Source of the DNA: Acidobacteriaceae bacterium
Lineage (GTDB): Bacteria; Acidobacteriota; Terriglobia; Terriglobales; SbA1
Assembly: GCA_003136335.1 (NCBI GenBank)
Contig: PLEA01000386.1
Span: 1 to 6,375 of the forward strand
Direction of reading: 5' to 3'
Length of the DNA stretch: 6,375 bases
Of the stretch, positions 1 to 6,375 are shown piece by piece. A program made the position numbers and the translations under genes. Under the pieces are notes generated by a model, which was not told the origin of the DNA, did no database searches, and was given only the letters and a program-made list of their open reading frames with translations. How positions within the stretch are numbered: position 1 is the first letter of the stretch; every line of letters begins with the position of its first letter.

Positions 1-773
1 AGAAGCACATTGCGCTTTACTGGCGCGGTATCGCAAAGGGTAAGAGTTGCGACAACGCGGTGCCCTCTGCGCGCCACGAATGTTCTGGGGAAGGGCTCTT
101 CAGGGCTGTTGGAAAGTGTCTGTGCAATTTCGTCCTCCGCAAGTTGCGGGGCGAATTGCCGAGTGCGATGAAAGCGATCGAGAAGCGATGTCATGGCTGG
201 CATATCCGCAGCCTGTGCAGCGTCAATGGAGTAGTGTTTCGAATGGCTCGTGAAAGGCGACGGTACCAATCCATTTACCAGAAAACGTCCGAGCCGAACC
301 CATCGCGGCGTGCCGAGCCGCCCTTCAAAGAGGGGCATGACCCGGTGATTGCCGTCGGCCGCCACACAAAAGCATAGATCGATGCCGTTGAGACGCAGAT
401 CGGCTTCGAGGGCTTTGATCAGGCGTACGGCCACAAGGCTTCCAGAAAAGCTTGGATGCACCTTCATGTCGCCTATGTAGGCGATGGTTTCCGGGACTCC
501 TGAAATATAGGCGGTGCGCAGCGCCGCGGAGATGCAGCCGATGACTTGTGGGCCTCGCACTGCCACGAAGACTTTGCTCTTACCGCGGAGCCGCAGCAAG
601 GCGAAAAAGTCGGGCTCGCGATCGATCCGGAGTGAGATAGCTCCATCCATGGGTGTCATTCGCGTGAGAGCTATCAACTCGTCGTTGTCGGCTTCGCTGG
701 CTTGGCGGATCTCGACGCGATGGCGTAACAGGGCAGGAACGGACATCGACGGGACATGCGGATGCGTGCTCAT
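1..773 (-). CDS. GNAT-family N-acyltransferase, 3' end cut off by the window
   Basis: The minus-strand frame from the ATG at 773 stays open to base 1 without a stop, giving 257 residues of an incomplete protein. Residues 20-150 read as a GNAT domain: an N-terminal strand with acidic helix (VEIRQASEADNDEL), the segment 'VFVAVRGPQVIGCISAAL' at about 68-85, and the beta4/motif A region 'YIGDMKVHPSFSGSLVAVRL' at 99-118. Family members transfer an acyl group from acyl-CoA to an amine. The usual acyl-CoA-binding pattern (Q/R-x-x-G-x-G/A) is degenerate here: Ser110 and Leu113 replace the expected Arg and Gly, while Gly111 and Ala115 remain. Residues from about 180 onward (YSIDAAQAADMPAMTSLLDRF, then TFVARRGHRVVATLTL) look like the start of a second GNAT fold, so the full protein is probably a tandem GNAT. 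The start forms an ATGA overlap with the MMPL stop and has a good Shine-Dalgarno sequence. A second in-frame ATG lies nine codons downstream. Substrate unknown. Confidence 0.8.
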   Translation of the reverse strand, partial: MSTHPHVPSMSVPALLRHRVEIRQASEADNDELIALTRMTPMDGAISLRIDREPDFFALLRLRGKSKVFVAVRGPQVIGCISAALRTAYISGVPETIAYIGDMKVHPSFSGSLVAVRLIKALEADLRLNGIDLCFCVAADGNHRVMPLFEGRLGTPRWVRLGRFLVNGLVPSPFTSHSKHYSIDAAQAADMPAMTSLLDRFHRTRQFAPQLAEDEIAQTLSNSPEEPFPRTFVARRGHRVVATLTLCDTAPVKRNVL

Positions 774-3028
774 CGGTTTCTCTCCTGTACTGTGGCACTC
801 ACACCAGAGAGTCCCCAGGGCCACCAATTCCAGTCACCAGCCAGACTGAGGAGGGCCGGGCCGATCACGATCCGAACCAGAGTCGCATCAATCAATACAG
901 CGACTGCCAGGGTGAAGCCGAGCATCTTGATCACCAGGAAGTCTCCCAGGGTAAAGCCCGCGAACACGACGATCATGATCGCAGCAGCGCTGGTGATCAG
1001 GCCCGCTGTTCTTGCCAGCGCTTCTGTGATGGCCTCGGTTTCGCTCAGGCCGCTCCGCCGAGCTTCGAGGACTCGTGCGACCAGAAACACTTCGTAATCC
1101 ATGCTTAAACCAAACACAATCGCGAAGGCAAGGATCGGTATGATGGGAAAGACGCCGCCGGTTCCCTCGTGGACGCCCAGGAAACGGCTTCCGTGTCCCT
1201 CCTGGAAGACCAGCACCAATGCCCCGAAAGCGGCGCCGACCGAAAGCAGATTCAGGGCGACGGCCTTTGCGGCGGCGAACAGGGATCGGAAGCCGACAAA
1301 AAGCGCCAGGAATGTTGCAGCGACCACGAGTGCGATCACCCGAGGCAGCCGGTCGCCGACCGCGTTCTCGTAGTCGGCATTCAAAGCGGGAATACCGCCA
1401 ATGCTGATCTTTGCACCGGGCATGCCTAGCAGATCGGCCACTGCCAGTCGCCGGAGTTCCCGCACCCAGCGGATCTGTTCTTCCGGAGAGACCCAAGACG
1501 CAGGTAAGAGCTCCTCAAGAGTAGCCCTTCCGTCGCCTCTGAGGAGACTCCTCCGAGTCTCGGAAGATAGAGACCAAATGAGGTCACGATGGCCCTCGGT
1601 CAGCGTTGGAAGCGAGATCACGCGATCAGCCCGCGGGTCGCTCGCCAATCGAGCCGAGAGGCGGACGGCCGCGTTCCACCCGGACTCGCCTTGGGAAATC
1701 GAATCTGACGGAAGCTCCAGTATTACCCGGAGCGACTGGACGATGCCGCCGCGCCCCATTTTTTGGAGCGAATGGAAGCCCTGAACTGATTCTGCCGACG
1801 CTGGGAGCCAATCCCCTCGCGGGAGCTTGGTTTCTAGCCGGGCGGCTTGCGACGCCAAAAGCAGGACCGGAACACCAGCGAGAACGAGTGCGGTCCAGGG
1901 ATGTGACGTAATCGTACGGCCCCAGCCTCTCCATCGATCCCGCGCATGGATGGAAGAGTCCGGATTCAACCTTCCTACGAATGGAACAACGCCGGCGTCG
2001 ATCCTCGAACCAAGAAGTGCCAGCCCTGCCGGAAGCAGAGTATTGGCGAGCAAGACGCTCGCGCCTGCCACCACAAACCCTGCCACCCCGATGGAGCGAA
2101 TCTCACTGATGGGAACTGTCAGGAGCGCCGCAAATCCGATTGCTACGGTCGACGCCGAGACAAGCAAAGTGTGGCCTGCCTGACGCACGGCTATTCCCGA
2201 CGCTTCCGAGGGACCGTGTCCGGCGGATAAAGCTTCACGGAAGCGGCTCACCATGAGGAGAGCGTAGTCAATCCCGAGACTGAGCCCGAGCATTGCCGCC
2301 AGATTCTGAACTAGGATAGATAGGTGCCAACGGAGAGCCAAAAGCGCCGCGACACCCAGCGCCATCGATATCGCGAGTTGACCAACGGCCAACGGGATCA
2401 GCGCTGCGACAAAGCTCGCGAATGCAAGCAGAAGCAACGCGAGCGTGGCCGGAAGGACCAGACTCTCTCCTTTACGCACCTCATCCGAGCTGGCCTTGCG
2501 GAGATCGAAGTTCAGTGGCAACTCCCCCGTCAATTCCAATTTCACGGATGGGTAGCGATTTCGGAACTGATCCTGGAGGATCCGCGCCCGCTCACGAATT
2601 TTGGGGACCAGCAATTCCCGCGGGCTGTTCACTGGCGCGAGTCCGATAAGGACAAAGGTGCCGCCTCCGTTTCCTAGGAAGATCGGATCGGGTAGGTCGA
2701 GGTAACTCACGATCGCGGACACGTCAGGGCCCTTCAGTGCATTGACAATCTTCGTCAATGCTTCTGCTCCTTCGTCGGAGTCCACGGGAGGCAGCCCTTG
2801 GATCACCAGGACGACCCGGTCCACGAACGGCGAGCGAAAGCGCGTGGCCAGTTGTTGGGCAACATAATCCGACTCGCTCCCTTCCAGGCGCACGGCGGTG
2901 TCGAGGCGTCGCTCGACATGGAAAGACAACGGAGCGAGCGCCAACGCCACCGCGGCAGTCAAGCCAGCGACCCAAAAAAGCCGTAGCCGCCCCGGACCGT
3001 CAGTATTCAAGTCAGGTGCGCTGTTCAT
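770..3028 (-). CDS. MMPL/RND-family lipid or hydrophobic-compound exporter
   Basis: This 752-residue inner-membrane transporter has the two-fold layout of the MMPL branch of the RND superfamily. A first membrane helix (about 16-36) is followed by a periplasmic loop (about 40-188), five helices (about 190-338), a seventh helix (about 378-394), a second loop (about 395-560) and five more helices (about 562-728). The proton-relay Asp-Tyr pairs of the family are visible as GIDY (D254-Y255) and SMDY (D644-Y645), so both halves look active. Relatives such as mycobacterial MmpL3 or HpnN move lipids or lipid-like molecules out of the inner membrane using the proton gradient. The length is normal for a short MMPL without a long cytoplasmic tail. 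The start at 3028 lies inside the end of the desaturase gene (17-base overlap) and is preceded by AGGGAG at 3033-3038. The stop overlaps the GNAT start by 4 bases. The neighbours suggest the cargo is the acyl product of this operon, which is inference. Confidence 0.93.
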   Translation of the reverse strand: MNSAPDLNTDGPGRLRLFWVAGLTAAVALALAPLSFHVERRLDTAVRLEGSESDYVAQQLATRFRSPFVDRVVLVIQGLPPVDSDEGAEALTKIVNALKGPDVSAIVSYLDLPDPIFLGNGGGTFVLIGLAPVNSPRELLVPKIRERARILQDQFRNRYPSVKLELTGELPLNFDLRKASSDEVRKGESLVLPATLALLLLAFASFVAALIPLAVGQLAISMALGVAALLALRWHLSILVQNLAAMLGLSLGIDYALLMVSRFREALSAGHGPSEASGIAVRQAGHTLLVSASTVAIGFAALLTVPISEIRSIGVAGFVVAGASVLLANTLLPAGLALLGSRIDAGVVPFVGRLNPDSSIHARDRWRGWGRTITSHPWTALVLAGVPVLLLASQAARLETKLPRGDWLPASAESVQGFHSLQKMGRGGIVQSLRVILELPSDSISQGESGWNAAVRLSARLASDPRADRVISLPTLTEGHRDLIWSLSSETRRSLLRGDGRATLEELLPASWVSPEEQIRWVRELRRLAVADLLGMPGAKISIGGIPALNADYENAVGDRLPRVIALVVAATFLALFVGFRSLFAAAKAVALNLLSVGAAFGALVLVFQEGHGSRFLGVHEGTGGVFPIIPILAFAIVFGLSMDYEVFLVARVLEARRSGLSETEAITEALARTAGLITSAAAIMIVVFAGFTLGDFLVIKMLGFTLAVAVLIDATLVRIVIGPALLSLAGDWNWWPWGLSGVSATVQERNR
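781..786 (-). promoter_or_regulatory. Ribosome binding site of the GNAT gene
   Basis: AGGAGA on the minus strand lies 7 bases before the ATG at 773, inside the last codons of the MMPL gene. It supports the ATG that overlaps the MMPL stop over the later in-frame ATG at codon 10. Confidence 0.65.
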
Positions 3029-4076
3029 GCGACTCCCTATCCGGGACGAGCTGTCTTTCGTGACTTAGCGGAAGGGGGCCGGACGGCTGGAAGTGCGGTG
3101 GCCAGGCTTTTTCAAGCGGCTGGGGTGGACGCCACTGTTCGAGGTATGTCGCCAGATAACCTCGCGTGGGTTGCTCAGCGGCGATCTTCGGAAGATAGAT
3201 CCACGGAACCCAAGCGGCCACATGATGAGTCAAGTGATAGTTGAAATGTAAATAAAGCAGTTCGAAAGGGCGCCAAAGATGGAGGTCTACCGCTCCGAGA
3301 ACCACGTGGCGGGGGGTGCGCACATGATAGAGGTATTGCTGGCTGGCCCAGCAAAATGCGAACGCCGCGTAACACACGGCGAGATGGGAGAGCTTGAAGT
3401 GCAGCAGCAGCGTAGCCAACGTCCAAACCACGACCGTCACGAGCAGATCCCGCCGGATTCGCCTGGGGTTCACGCTGTTGAGGAACTGCATATAGCGCAA
3501 AAGGACTCCCGAGTTCTCTCCCGGCACAGGCATTTGAATGGATGCGCCAGGAATCAACGCGATGGTCAGTAATGCGAGCGGAGTCAAAAACCAGAACAGT
3601 CCGCAGAGTACGAGGTAGTAAGCGGCGCGCTTCCGCCAGCGTATCTCGCCCGGCAGAACATAGTCTTCTAACTCGGCGTCGGAGCGATTCCTTCGATGGT
3701 GGACAAGGTGGGCTATCTCAAACAGGTGATAGCTTCCAGGGAACAGAGAATATAAAAGGATTCCAAGTCCCTCATTTACAGCAGGCCTGGAGTGCAGCTT
3801 GCTATGCGCCGCCTCATGGGCCAGACCGAAACCAAGCTGCATGAAAAAGGCGAAGGCAACCGCAAACAGTGCCGTAACCCAGAGAGTTCTTGCGTGGGAA
3901 GCGGCCCCGAGGAGGGCGAAAGATAAAACGATCTGCCCTACGGCCAAAACCGCATTCAATGTTCCCGGGATGGGGTACTGGTTGGGGTCGGATTGACGGA
4001 CGAAGTGTCCCTGCGCTACCGCCTCGCGGAAGATGAGTCGATCGGGATGGTGCGGGGCTGCGATTGTCTCTTTCAT
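3012..4076 (-). CDS. Membrane fatty acid desaturase family protein
   Basis: The 354-residue integral membrane protein belongs to the FA_desaturase family (PF00487-type), di-iron enzymes that desaturate or hydroxylate acyl chains or similar hydrocarbon substrates with O2 and an electron donor. All three histidine boxes are present: HEAAH (H87, H91) followed by H95, HLVHH (H123, H126, H127) and HLTHH (H281, H284, H285). The last is followed by the familiar aromatic-Pro stretch WVPWIYLP. Hydrophobic segments lie at about 40-60, 66-86, 152-176 and 210-245. The ATG at 4076 is the first possible start after an in-frame TAG about 30 bases upstream. It has no clear Shine-Dalgarno sequence, so initiation may be weak or controlled. 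The last 17 bases overlap the MMPL gene, which argues for coupled translation. Regiospecificity and substrate (acyl-CoA, acyl-ACP, lipid, or a free intermediate as in RtxC-type relatives) cannot be read from the sequence. Confidence 0.92.
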   Translation of the reverse strand: MKETIAAPHHPDRLIFREAVAQGHFVRQSDPNQYPIPGTLNAVLAVGQIVLSFALLGAASHARTLWVTALFAVAFAFFMQLGFGLAHEAAHSKLHSRPAVNEGLGILLYSLFPGSYHLFEIAHLVHHRRNRSDAELEDYVLPGEIRWRKRAAYYLVLCGLFWFLTPLALLTIALIPGASIQMPVPGENSGVLLRYMQFLNSVNPRRIRRDLLVTVVVWTLATLLLHFKLSHLAVCYAAFAFCWASQQYLYHVRTPRHVVLGAVDLHLWRPFELLYLHFNYHLTHHVAAWVPWIYLPKIAAEQPTRGYLATYLEQWRPPQPLEKAWPPHFQPSGPLPLSHERQLVPDRESHEQRT

Positions 4077-4088
4077 TGAGATCGATCC

Positions 4089-4103
4089 GGAATCCGAGAT
4101 TCC
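4089..4103 (-). repeat. Perfect 6-bp inverted repeat just before the desaturase start
   Basis: GGAATC and GATTCC are perfect reverse complements separated by CGA, forming a compact stem-loop that ends 12 bases before the desaturase ATG. In mRNA it sits where the ribosome would bind, and as DNA it could be an operator half-site pair. Six base pairs can also arise by chance, so function is unproven. Confidence 0.35.
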
Positions 4104-4136
4104 CTAGCAGCGACCGGGGCTGATCCGACGTCACCA

Positions 4137-4167
4137 AGTATACCCATTCTTCGATGCCCTCAATCAA
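4137..4167 (-). promoter_or_regulatory. Possible sigma70-type promoter for desaturase-MMPL-GNAT
   Basis: On the minus strand TATACT (4142 to 4137) matches the -10 consensus at five of six bases. Candidate -35 elements are TTGATT (4167 to 4162, spacer 19) or TTGAGG (4163 to 4158, spacer 15). Neither spacer is the ideal 17. Transcription from here would give a leader of roughly 55 bases containing the hairpin. It would form a second start point inside the operon. Confidence 0.3.
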
Positions 4168-4209
4168 TGAGATTGCGGCCTCGGTTGGAGACGACAATTC
4201 CGAGACCCT

Positions 4210-5004
4210 TTACTGCTTCCGAAAGATCAGGGTTTCCCTTATTCGCTCTCCTGTGCCCAACACGCCTGTCGTTGTCAGTGTCATCTGCTGTCCGTCTGCG
4301 GAGATGACCCAGCGATCTTGATCGGCGATTTGATCGCCTCGTCTGTAGGTCGAGTCGACCGTGTGTGCGTCGATGAGGACTAATGCGACGGTATCGTCAC
4401 GTGAGTCCTTCAGTGGATAGTCCCGCCCGTCAAAGTTTGCGATATAACTGAACTCGCCGACGAAATGAACTCCGTCCCTTCCGTCCGATTCAATCTTGAG
4501 CACGAGCCCTTGTCGCAATCGAGTCTTACTGAAGTCCTGCGTCCACTCGCCGACGAATGGGTTGGCGGCATTCTGCAAGCCTCCGCTTCGCTCCCATACA
4601 GTGATCTGGTCTTCGTGCCCCTGCTGCACCGTGGTGATCGTTAACTCCTTGCGGTCGCTCGAGACTTTGTCACGAAGCGTTGCTACAAGTGCCCCGTTCT
4701 TCTTCTCCTTAATCTCAGATTGGTACTTATCTATCCTGCGCATCACGATCTGATTAAACGCCGGAATATTTTGTACGTGATTGTCATGTCCGTCCCAGGC
4801 CGCAGTAAAGTCGAGGTGGGTGCTACCTAAAATTACTACGTGCACGCCCTTGCCTTGAGGCGTAATGAAGAGCACTCTCGGGGGATCCAAGGCAGAATCC
4901 GCCGAAACAAGTTTCCAGGCGCCGATGCGTGGATCGGCGGCACAGAGCCGCGCAGAAACGACCACGATCCACGTTAGTTTGAGCATCGTTGATTTGCGAA
5001 TCAT
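4210..5004 (-). CDS. Secreted hypothetical protein with two tandem beta-rich domains
   Basis: I do not recognise a characterised family for this 264-residue protein. The N-terminus (MIRKSTMLKL then TWIVVVSARLCAA) looks like a signal peptide with cleavage probably after Ala23, so the protein is likely periplasmic or exported. The Cys at 21 does not sit in a good lipobox. The mature part contains two similar domains. Repeat 1 (about 27-137) begins IGAWKLVSADSA and ends near KELTITT. Repeat 2 (about 151-262) begins VGEWTQDFSKTR and contains DGRDYPLKDSRDD, VALVLIDAHTVDSTYRRG and GQQMTLTTTG. The alternating hydrophobic pattern suggests lipocalin-like or related small beta barrels, possibly binding a hydrophobic ligand. 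Similar repeats occur, as I recall, in secreted Acidobacteriota proteins. I chose the ATG at 5004 because GAGGGG lies 4 bases ahead of it. A TTG at 5016 would form a TTGA overlap with the upstream stop, adding four residues. The gene follows the DUF3419 gene with an 8-base gap. Confidence 0.78.
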   Translation of the reverse strand: MIRKSTMLKLTWIVVVSARLCAADPRIGAWKLVSADSALDPPRVLFITPQGKGVHVVILGSTHLDFTAAWDGHDNHVQNIPAFNQIVMRRIDKYQSEIKEKKNGALVATLRDKVSSDRKELTITTVQQGHEDQITVWERSGGLQNAANPFVGEWTQDFSKTRLRQGLVLKIESDGRDGVHFVGEFSYIANFDGRDYPLKDSRDDTVALVLIDAHTVDSTYRRGDQIADQDRWVISADGQQMTLTTTGVLGTGERIRETLIFRKQ

Positions 5005-5008
5005 TGTG

Positions 5009-5014
5009 CCCCTC
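5009..5014 (-). promoter_or_regulatory. Ribosome binding site choosing the ATG of the secreted protein
   Basis: GAGGGG on the minus strand overlaps the TGA stop of the DUF3419 gene and stands 4 bases before the ATG at 5004. It favours that ATG over the TTG at 5016, which shares bases with the stop. This arrangement suits re-initiation by ribosomes ending the upstream gene. Confidence 0.5.
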
Positions 5015-6134
5015 AAGCGATGTTTTTGCCATTAACGACGAAAGCCTGGACACGCGAGTACACGAAAGAGCGGTCGCGCGCGATAAGGTCGCGGCTGAGT
5101 TCCTCCTGGAGTTCGATCTCGCTCTGCAGGCTCTCTGGCACGCCGCGCGGCACAATCAAGTTGCGAAAGCAGATGCGGGCACCAGGTCGGGCCGAGCGTG
5201 CTACCTCAGCGAAGAGCCGGGCTGTCTCATCGGGGCTCATGAGCTCGCAGATGTTGGAGAGGCTGAAGCAGTCAATGGAGTCGTCGGGTTGTTGGCCGAT
5301 AAACTCCTGCGCGGGTGACGTGACCAGCTCGATGCGGCTCAACCGCTCCCTCACGACCGGCAGGTTTTCCCTCAGCAAGTATGCCGGTACAGCCTCCTCA
5401 CTCCGGTAGCGCGCCAGCAGATATTGTGCCAGGAAGTAATTGGATTCGACCGGGATATCGCACATCGCGCGCCTGGCTCGCAGAAGAAAACTCTCCGGGA
5501 AGGATGATGATCCATCGTCGAACTTGAAGTAATCCGCGGTCAGTCCACGCTTCGCGAGCATCCGCTTGTTGGCGAGCAGCTTGAAGAGCAATCGCCACTG
5601 TACCGTGTTCCACTTCCTGTCGAAGTAGTCCTCCTGCTGCTCGAGCGTTGCGCAACGGAACAATCCGTCGATGCGTTTCTTCCCCTGCATCACGCCCAGA
5701 AAGCGACTGAAGAGACGGATGAAGGACTCGTACTTGCCCGCATTGACGACTCCCTTGCGCACGGCTTCCGGCTTGCCTGTCCAATAGCAAAGGGCAGCTT
5801 CGCTGAGATCGCCGCGCAAGCGCTCGAAAACCTGCAGCCGCTGGCCGGACGGAGCGAGCCCGAGAAAAGCGCGCAGCTCGTCGTACTCGAGATGGCGCAC
5901 CGCGGCGCGTTTCAACTCCAGGAGGTAGGACTGCGAGGGGTTGATGTCGACCGCGTAGACCTTGCCGGGATCCTCCAGCAGCAGCGTAAGCGTGTTGCAG
6001 GCACCGGAGGTGATCGTTATGAGGGTTTCGCCGGGCTGGATCGCCAGGGCTCGCCGGTCCGATGCGGGATCTTCCCAACTCATCCCAAACAGTAGATCAG
6101 ACAGCTCTACCTGCTCCCGCGATTTGACGCTCAT
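5013..6134 (-). CDS. DUF3419/BtaA-like SAM 3-amino-3-carboxypropyltransferase
   Basis: The 373-residue soluble protein matches the DUF3419 family. Its best-known member, BtaA, transfers the 3-amino-3-carboxypropyl group of S-adenosylmethionine to diacylglycerol, the first step of betaine-lipid synthesis. Family hallmarks are the early 'FGMSWEDP' stretch (16-23), the SAM-binding loop ITITSGACNTLTLLL (39-53), the acidic ribose contact AVDINPSQ (61-68), 'SNYFLAQYLLARYR' (231-244) followed by 'PAYLLREN', 'DCFSLSNICELM' (288-299) and 'CFRNLIVPRG' (322-331). The start at 6134 is supported by GGAAGGA at 6142-6148. The next Met (residue 18) would cut off part of the conserved N-terminal motif. The start overlaps the upstream reductase-like gene by 38 bases. 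No BtaB-type methyltransferase is seen in the window, and the sequence may be a divergent member with another acceptor, so I give no gene symbol. Family membership is sure, substrate is not. Confidence 0.88.
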   Translation of the reverse strand: MSVKSREQVELSDLLFGMSWEDPASDRRALAIQPGETLITITSGACNTLTLLLEDPGKVYAVDINPSQSYLLELKRAAVRHLEYDELRAFLGLAPSGQRLQVFERLRGDLSEAALCYWTGKPEAVRKGVVNAGKYESFIRLFSRFLGVMQGKKRIDGLFRCATLEQQEDYFDRKWNTVQWRLLFKLLANKRMLAKRGLTADYFKFDDGSSSFPESFLLRARRAMCDIPVESNYFLAQYLLARYRSEEAVPAYLLRENLPVVRERLSRIELVTSPAQEFIGQQPDDSIDCFSLSNICELMSPDETARLFAEVARSARPGARICFRNLIVPRGVPESLQSEIELQEELSRDLIARDRSFVYSRVQAFVVNGKNIA

Positions 6135-6375
6135 CTGCTAATCCTTCCGTCTCGCAGGTGACTTCTTCAAGAGGCCCTTGTGCGTTGTACAATGGCGCAA
6201 GATGGATTCCGTGACGCGCCGCAATGGTTTCGATCTCCTGCACCCGCTCGGGTGTGATGAACCCTCTTCCCTGGGAGAACGGTTCAAATCTGCCTTCCAG
6301 GGCGAGCACCATGCCTTCCATAACACATCCTTGTCCCACATTCGGAAATGGATGACGATGCAGCACGCGGTGAAC
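6097..6375 (-). CDS. C-terminus of an acyl-ACP-reductase-like / predicted amino acid dehydrogenase, 5' end outside the window
   Basis: The frame is open from the right edge to a TGA at 6097, giving the last 92 residues of a longer protein. The fragment carries a pattern that I recognise from the end of cyanobacterial long-chain acyl-ACP reductase (AAR) and related 'predicted amino acid dehydrogenases': C-x-x-E-x-x-x-L-A-L-E (17-27), F-S-x-G-R (33-37), I-T-x-E-x-V-x-x-I (40-48) and a terminal H-G (55-56). AAR reduces fatty acyl thioesters to aldehydes with NADPH. The cofactor and catalytic parts lie outside the window, so activity cannot be judged. Residues after about 64 form a charged tail, whose last 12 codons overlap the DUF3419 gene. 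Another Rossmann dehydrogenase with a similar end remains possible. An internal GTG at 6366 opens the same frame but is not a credible start, because homology continues to the window edge. Confidence 0.62.
   Translation of the reverse strand, partial: VHRVLHRHPFPNVGQGCVMEGMVLALEGRFEPFSQGRGFITPERVQEIETIAARHGIHLAPLYNAQGPLEEVTCETEGLADERQIAGAGRAV
6142..6148 (-). promoter_or_regulatory. Ribosome binding site of the DUF3419 gene
   Basis: GGAAGGA on the minus strand ends 7 bases before the ATG at 6134, within the coding sequence of the upstream gene. It supports the long, overlapping start over the internal Met at codon 18. Confidence 0.55.

Follow-up and report, generated by a model that had tools for sequence, protein, structure and literature searches.

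What do six adjacent genes of a soil bacterium of the Acidobacteriaceae make together? They lie on the minus strand of contig PLEA01000386.1 (positions 1 to 6,375; this whole stretch of 6,375 nucleotides is called the window here). The preliminary description of this DNA had recognized an acyl-ACP reductase-like protein (AAR; ACP, acyl carrier protein), a BtaA-like protein of the S-adenosylmethionine (SAM) 3-amino-3-carboxypropyltransferase family (called DUF3419 below), a secreted protein, a desaturase, an MMPL transporter and a GNAT protein, and had suggested as the product an amino-acid-headed lipid or modified alkyl compound that is desaturated, possibly N-acylated, and exported. Coordinates and family matches confirmed the six co-directional genes. 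The same six genes occur in identical order, with 82–95% protein identity, in a second locus (L001), so that the arrangement is not due to chance. As a conserved unit the six families held up in part: homologues are clustered not in this genome only but also elsewhere, including a second phylum, and the conserved core is ADO-AAR-DUF3419-GNAT. The first of these genes, encoding an ADO-like ferritin (ADO, aldehyde-deformylating oxygenase), is found upstream of AAR in L001 and other loci, at a position that falls outside the window. We regard it as close to an even chance that the window shows one of several arrangements of a conserved biosynthetic module that serves a single pathway to an N-acyl homoserine-type lipid.

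Given its high identity, L001 served as stand-in for the window's contig beyond its edges. Close homologues of the window proteins bear the names Candidatus Acidiferrum and Acidobacteriaceae, in keeping with an origin in Acidobacteriota. The core occurs in two phyla, with identities to L001 of 43–45% (ADO), 38–42% (AAR), 44–49% (DUF3419) and 27–35% (GNAT). The order is ADO-AAR-DUF3419-(secreted)-DES-MMPL-GNAT in the window type (L001; DES, desaturase), GNAT-ADO-AAR-DUF3419 in the Bacteroidota loci and DES-GNAT-ADO-AAR-DUF3419 in L003. In the Ferruginibacter locus L004 the core spans 7108-11101. While other genes permute, DUF3419 overlaps AAR or lies at most 30 nucleotides from it in all eight clustered loci. 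A decayed copy in genome G250 (L052:9076-14246) reads DES-MMPL-GNAT fragment-AAR fragment-DUF3419 fragments, with the GNAT fragment running into the AAR fragment and DUF3419 broken; this order would be compatible with the cyclic rearrangement of a single gene set. Only DUF3419 fragments are left in L053 (G057), and no ADO was found in G250 or G057. In L002 (2740-4389) MMPL is internally deleted and GNAT is split, possibly by an assembly error. Such broken-looking copies (L002, L052, L053), the recurrence of the full window order in only one other genome and the poor conservation of the secreted protein and MMPL would suit operon noise, that is, functionally unrelated neighbours inherited together by chance. 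This is very improbable, as the four-gene core is kept in two phyla and DUF3419 and GNAT are present all-or-none. Trees split first by phylum and do not show the extended form to be either ancestral or derived.

Searches for the ADO-like protein in five overlapping groups matched 3 of 396, 5 of 294, 7 of 200, 7 of 19 and 2 of 295 genomes. These are 21 distinct genomes, to which G005, found via DUF3419, was added as the 22nd; a search of plasmids found no ADO-like protein. Eight loci carry the extended core (L001, L002, L003, L004, L041, L042, L043 and L072; in L002, ADO is on a separate contig, L046), and all four core genes occur in nine of the 22 genomes, G005 being the ninth. ADO-AAR stands alone in 13 (L039, L040, L044, L045, L047-L049, L066-L071), several of whose contigs end near ADO. 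Genome-wide searches of these 13 revealed neither a core DUF3419 nor a strong match to GNAT; a GNAT match of 62.6 bits was obtained in G996 and DUF3419 paralogues of at most 190 bits in G558 and G363. The presence count is biased by G001-G005, which were found through DUF3419. Among the other 17 genomes, DUF3419 and GNAT were both present in four, both absent in 13 and never present singly, fractions and odds that ignore kinship; the four are all relatives of G004 (Bacteroidota). A second ADO-AAR copy (L027, on the 3.2-kilobase contig C407) was seen in G001, a genome with an extended operon; it was counted as neither locus type and is labelled solo in the trees despite its cut contig.

The ADO-like partner upstream makes AAR one half of an alkane-type pair. 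The whole AAR homologue of L001 and the homologue of L004 matched TIGR04058 with 141 and 196.8 bits, and the L001 protein matched the AAR structure 6jzq of the PDB with an E value of 2.5e-31. In the alignment to 6jzq, the cysteine in GQGCVMEG of the window fragment coincides with AAR Cys294, which we take to be the catalytic residue, in agreement with the PDB entry title AAR-C294S. All 22 rows, among them that of the window fragment, have cysteine at this position; the fragment rows L046 and L052 had been left out beforehand. A PigE-type reductase was dropped as a candidate for AAR, since PigE matches over the reductase part only (to about residue 342 of 837).

The ADO-like proteins of L001 and L004 matched PF11266 with 42.3 and 53.4 bits (Pfam threshold 28), and some match to TIGR04059 was obtained in 14 of 16 genomes, the best with 60.1 bits. 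A match to the ADO model below the cut-off was also seen in the control genome of Caulobacter vibrioides. Six residues (E37, E67, H70, E122, E151 and H154) are invariant in 37 of 37 alignment rows and were matched by alignment to those positions of ADO that are presumably its carboxylate and histidine metal ligands. The clade carries an additional invariant CxxCxxxCxK motif, perhaps a cysteine metal site with a candidate role in electron delivery. The adjacent AAR and ADO-fold genes, the AAR cysteine, the six ligand positions and PF11266 are shared with the cyanobacterial AAR/ADO hydrocarbon pathway. The module differs from it in an identity of 18–22% to solved ADOs (by structural match), in scores far below the equivalog cut-offs, in the cysteine motif, in its non-cyanobacterial hosts and in being embedded, in part, with DUF3419 and a GNAT resembling N-myristoyltransferase (NMT). 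A 2014 paper describes the ADO step as unique to cyanobacteria (PMC3903477). The ADO-like protein might instead be another di-iron oxidase, of the N-oxygenase or desaturase type, acting on an amino-acid-bearing intermediate, in which case the product would be a specialised metabolite and not a membrane lipid. We consider this unlikely because sequence, fold and AAR pairing favour ADO, and the same protein clade accompanies AAR alone in 13 genomes.

The DUF3419 protein of the window matched PF11899 with 228.8 bits (Pfam threshold 28.2). Its Asn294, within SNICELM, marks a subgroup: residue 294 is Asn in nine of nine core rows and Asp in five of five others, and the core proteins have further subgroup-specific residues. 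Among the matches listed, 116 of 120 homologues contain SNICELM, two SNIGELM and two no such string. Judged by sequence, Asp at position 294 would define BtaA, and the core proteins would fall outside this definition. The search for DUF3419 matched 12 of 298 genomes. An intact core copy was present in G001 only; those of G250 and G057 are broken, L013 and L014 are paralogues with 31–33% identity, and the remaining seven genomes reached at most 33 bits. In the DUF3419 tree the core is not a single clade separate from L013 and L014. Identity to 14 plasmid-borne homologues, mostly rhizobial, is 24–32%, and the profile found no usable match in the PDB (best E value 0.34). Membership in the SAM 3-amino-3-carboxypropyltransferase family links the protein to BtaA/BtaB synthesis of diacylglyceryltrimethylhomoserine. 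The differences are Asn294 in place of Asp, the position of DUF3419 after AAR, whereas in Rhizobium leguminosarum L075 it precedes an adjoining methyltransferase, and the lack of BtaB: a scan of the window genes, to which it was confined, found no BtaB-like methyltransferase. A betaine-lipid operon was rejected because the window has no BtaB and because of the Asn.

The whole GNAT homologue of L001 (379 amino acids) was modelled as NMT-like. The model shows a tandem GNAT fold that follows NMT across about 300 residues, and its end aligns with residue 496 of human NMT1. The same terminal motif is present in 115 of 120 homologues among the matches listed. In the model, this fixed C-terminus sits where NMT supplies its catalytic carboxylate, an agreement in position only. 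In Pfam the protein matched general GNAT families and, below threshold, FeeM. Fold and C-terminus resemble those of eukaryotic NMT, but the protein is bacterial and, unlike NMT, probably has a small amine, not a protein, as its acceptor. Two-chain N-acyl amino-acid lipids are built with a GNAT-type N-acyltransferase by the ornithine-lipid synthases OlsB and OlsA; here, SAM would supply the head group and an AAR product the second chain. NpuN, likewise a bacterial tandem GNAT, belongs to the nostolysamide pathway, which acylates an amine, that of lysine (PMC13060382); amine acylation is what we propose for the protein studied here. The NMT-like fold and the fixed C-terminus strengthen the earlier idea of an N-acylated homoserine lipid, an idea that had not included the ADO partner and whose product structure is hypothetical. 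The all-or-none presence of DUF3419 and the NMT-like GNAT beside AAR, sometimes with MMPL, also fits such a lipid.

In the proposed pathway, AAR would reduce acyl-ACP to a fatty aldehyde, and the ADO-like di-iron enzyme would either deformylate this aldehyde or oxidize it in a related way, leaving a chain that is shorter and may carry oxygen. DUF3419 would then move the 3-amino-3-carboxypropyl group of SAM onto a hydroxyl of the chain or another nucleophile. The NMT-like enzyme would N-acylate the new amine with its own C-terminal carboxylate as base, desaturase and P450 would tailor the chain, and MMPL, where present, would export the N-acyl homoserine-type lipid. The families, their linkage in two phyla and the conserved active-site positions are observed and the folds are predicted; we infer the order of steps, the DUF3419 acceptor, the compound released by the ADO-like enzyme, the final product and its export. 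A more specific version, in which the AAR/ADO chain, the SAM-derived group and NMT-like N-acylation yield an N-acyl homoserine-ether lipid, exported in hosts that have MMPL, and the ADO has a cysteine metal site, is tentative and rather doubtful.

Several findings weigh against a single pathway. Both AAR proteins stay below the TIGR04058 equivalog cut-off of 449.7 bits, and none of the 16 genomes exceeded that of TIGR04059 (222.65 bits). A plain-deformylase ADO cannot feed DUF3419, because an alkane has no hydroxyl for BtaA-type transfer; either the ADO-like product is oxygenated, or another branch uses the AAR product, or each half of the module has a product of its own. Judging from Asn in place of Asp, the acceptor of DUF3419 may differ from that of BtaA. 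Identity between GNAT and NMT is 12–17%, single-domain acetyltransferases slightly outscore NMT by sequence, and the L001 GNAT had no match to the Pfam NMT domains. No ACP, ligase or thioesterase is found among the window genes, MMPL is missing from most loci, and the window desaturase and the L001 P450, used as queries, had no match in the examined stretches of L004, L042 and L072. Finally, clustering is not universal: in G005, the contig with DES-ADO-AAR stops behind AAR, DUF3419 starts at the edge of another, and GNAT lies inside a third, where its neighbours on either side are other genes, among them a different member of the FA_desaturase family.

The separate GNAT of G005 also speaks for two co-regulated but distinct products, membrane hydrocarbons from AAR-ADO and an N-acylated diacylglyceryl-homoserine made from diacylglycerol by DUF3419 and the NMT-like enzyme. 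ADO-AAR can be a complete pathway, as 13 of 22 genomes have it but neither DUF3419 nor GNAT, and DUF3419 belongs to the BtaA family, whose known acceptor is diacylglycerol. The constant proximity of DUF3419 to AAR despite permutation, the lack of a BtaB-like gene in the window and the Asp-to-Asn difference argue otherwise, and we consider two products possible but not probable. The single pathway to an N-acyl homoserine-type lipid is the reading we prefer.

Within the window, all on the minus strand, the AAR-like C-terminus (6097..6375; 92 amino acids, 5′ end cut by the window edge, 19.5 bits to TIGR04058 on the fragment) overlaps the DUF3419 gene (5013..6134; 373 amino acids, PF11899 E value 1.5e-67) by 38 nucleotides. 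A gap of 8 nucleotides precedes the gene of the 264-amino-acid protein (4210..5004), whose ATG at 5004 follows GAGGGGC. Its N-terminus, read by eye, is signal-peptide-like; no family matched. The FA_desaturase-family membrane enzyme (3012..4076; 354 amino acids, E value 1.8e-22) follows after 133 nucleotides and overlaps MMPL (770..3028; 752 amino acids, E value 2.7e-65) by 17 nucleotides, which in turn overlaps the tandem GNAT (3..773; first 257 amino acids, 3′ end cut, E value 1.2e-8) by 4 nucleotides. The junctions are overlapping or near-touching, as first described, except for the gap of 133 nucleotides. No tRNA, tmRNA or Rfam match was found in the window.

The secreted protein, MMPL, desaturase and P450 are accessory to the core. 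Among the loci examined, the secreted-type protein is confined to the window and L001. MMPL is present in the window, L001 and L052, with a remnant in L002; the best NCBIfam match of the window protein is MmpL3 (247.7 bits; cut-off 1400). DES occurs in L001, L002, L003, L041 (short), L052 and G005. From the histidine boxes read in its translation (HEAAH, HLVHH, HLTHH), the window enzyme could be a desaturase or a hydroxylase. In G005 (L081:9231-11351), the gene after the NMT-like GNAT encodes an FA_desaturase-family protein whose nearest match is the amino-acid hydroxylase GntB (89.6 bits; cut-off 380); some desaturase-like genes here may therefore be hydroxylases. A P450 gene is convergent on GNAT in L001 (9095-10477) and L002 (4381-5895), and another lies downstream of DUF3419 in L043. 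The flanking genes examined did not point to unrelated pathways, the possibility raised in the preliminary description. Beside the clusters of L004 and L041, a large protein resembling a sensor is encoded divergently, along with a response regulator of the LytTR type (L004:2345-6258 and L041:4054-8057), a possible regulator of the cluster; the scans covered the LytTR regulators of both loci and, of the sensors, that of L004, a propeller histidine kinase. An MmgE/PrpD-family protein is encoded near the cluster in L043 (2635-4263) and L072 (6789-8453).

Each of the families is known; no description of their combination was found in the open-access literature among the matches listed. AAR/ADO-type pairs occur in genomes of Acidobacteriota and Bacteroidota, in part tied to amino-lipid enzymes, and their ADO clade has an invariant cysteine motif of an unusual kind. 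The GNAT protein is a bacterial candidate for NMT-type catalysis by a C-terminal carboxylate. The four-gene core is concrete and clonable, and makes a possible new lipid class testable. If the proposal is true, it would represent an undescribed bacterial lipid pathway that joins an AAR/ADO chain, a SAM-derived group and NMT-like acylation.
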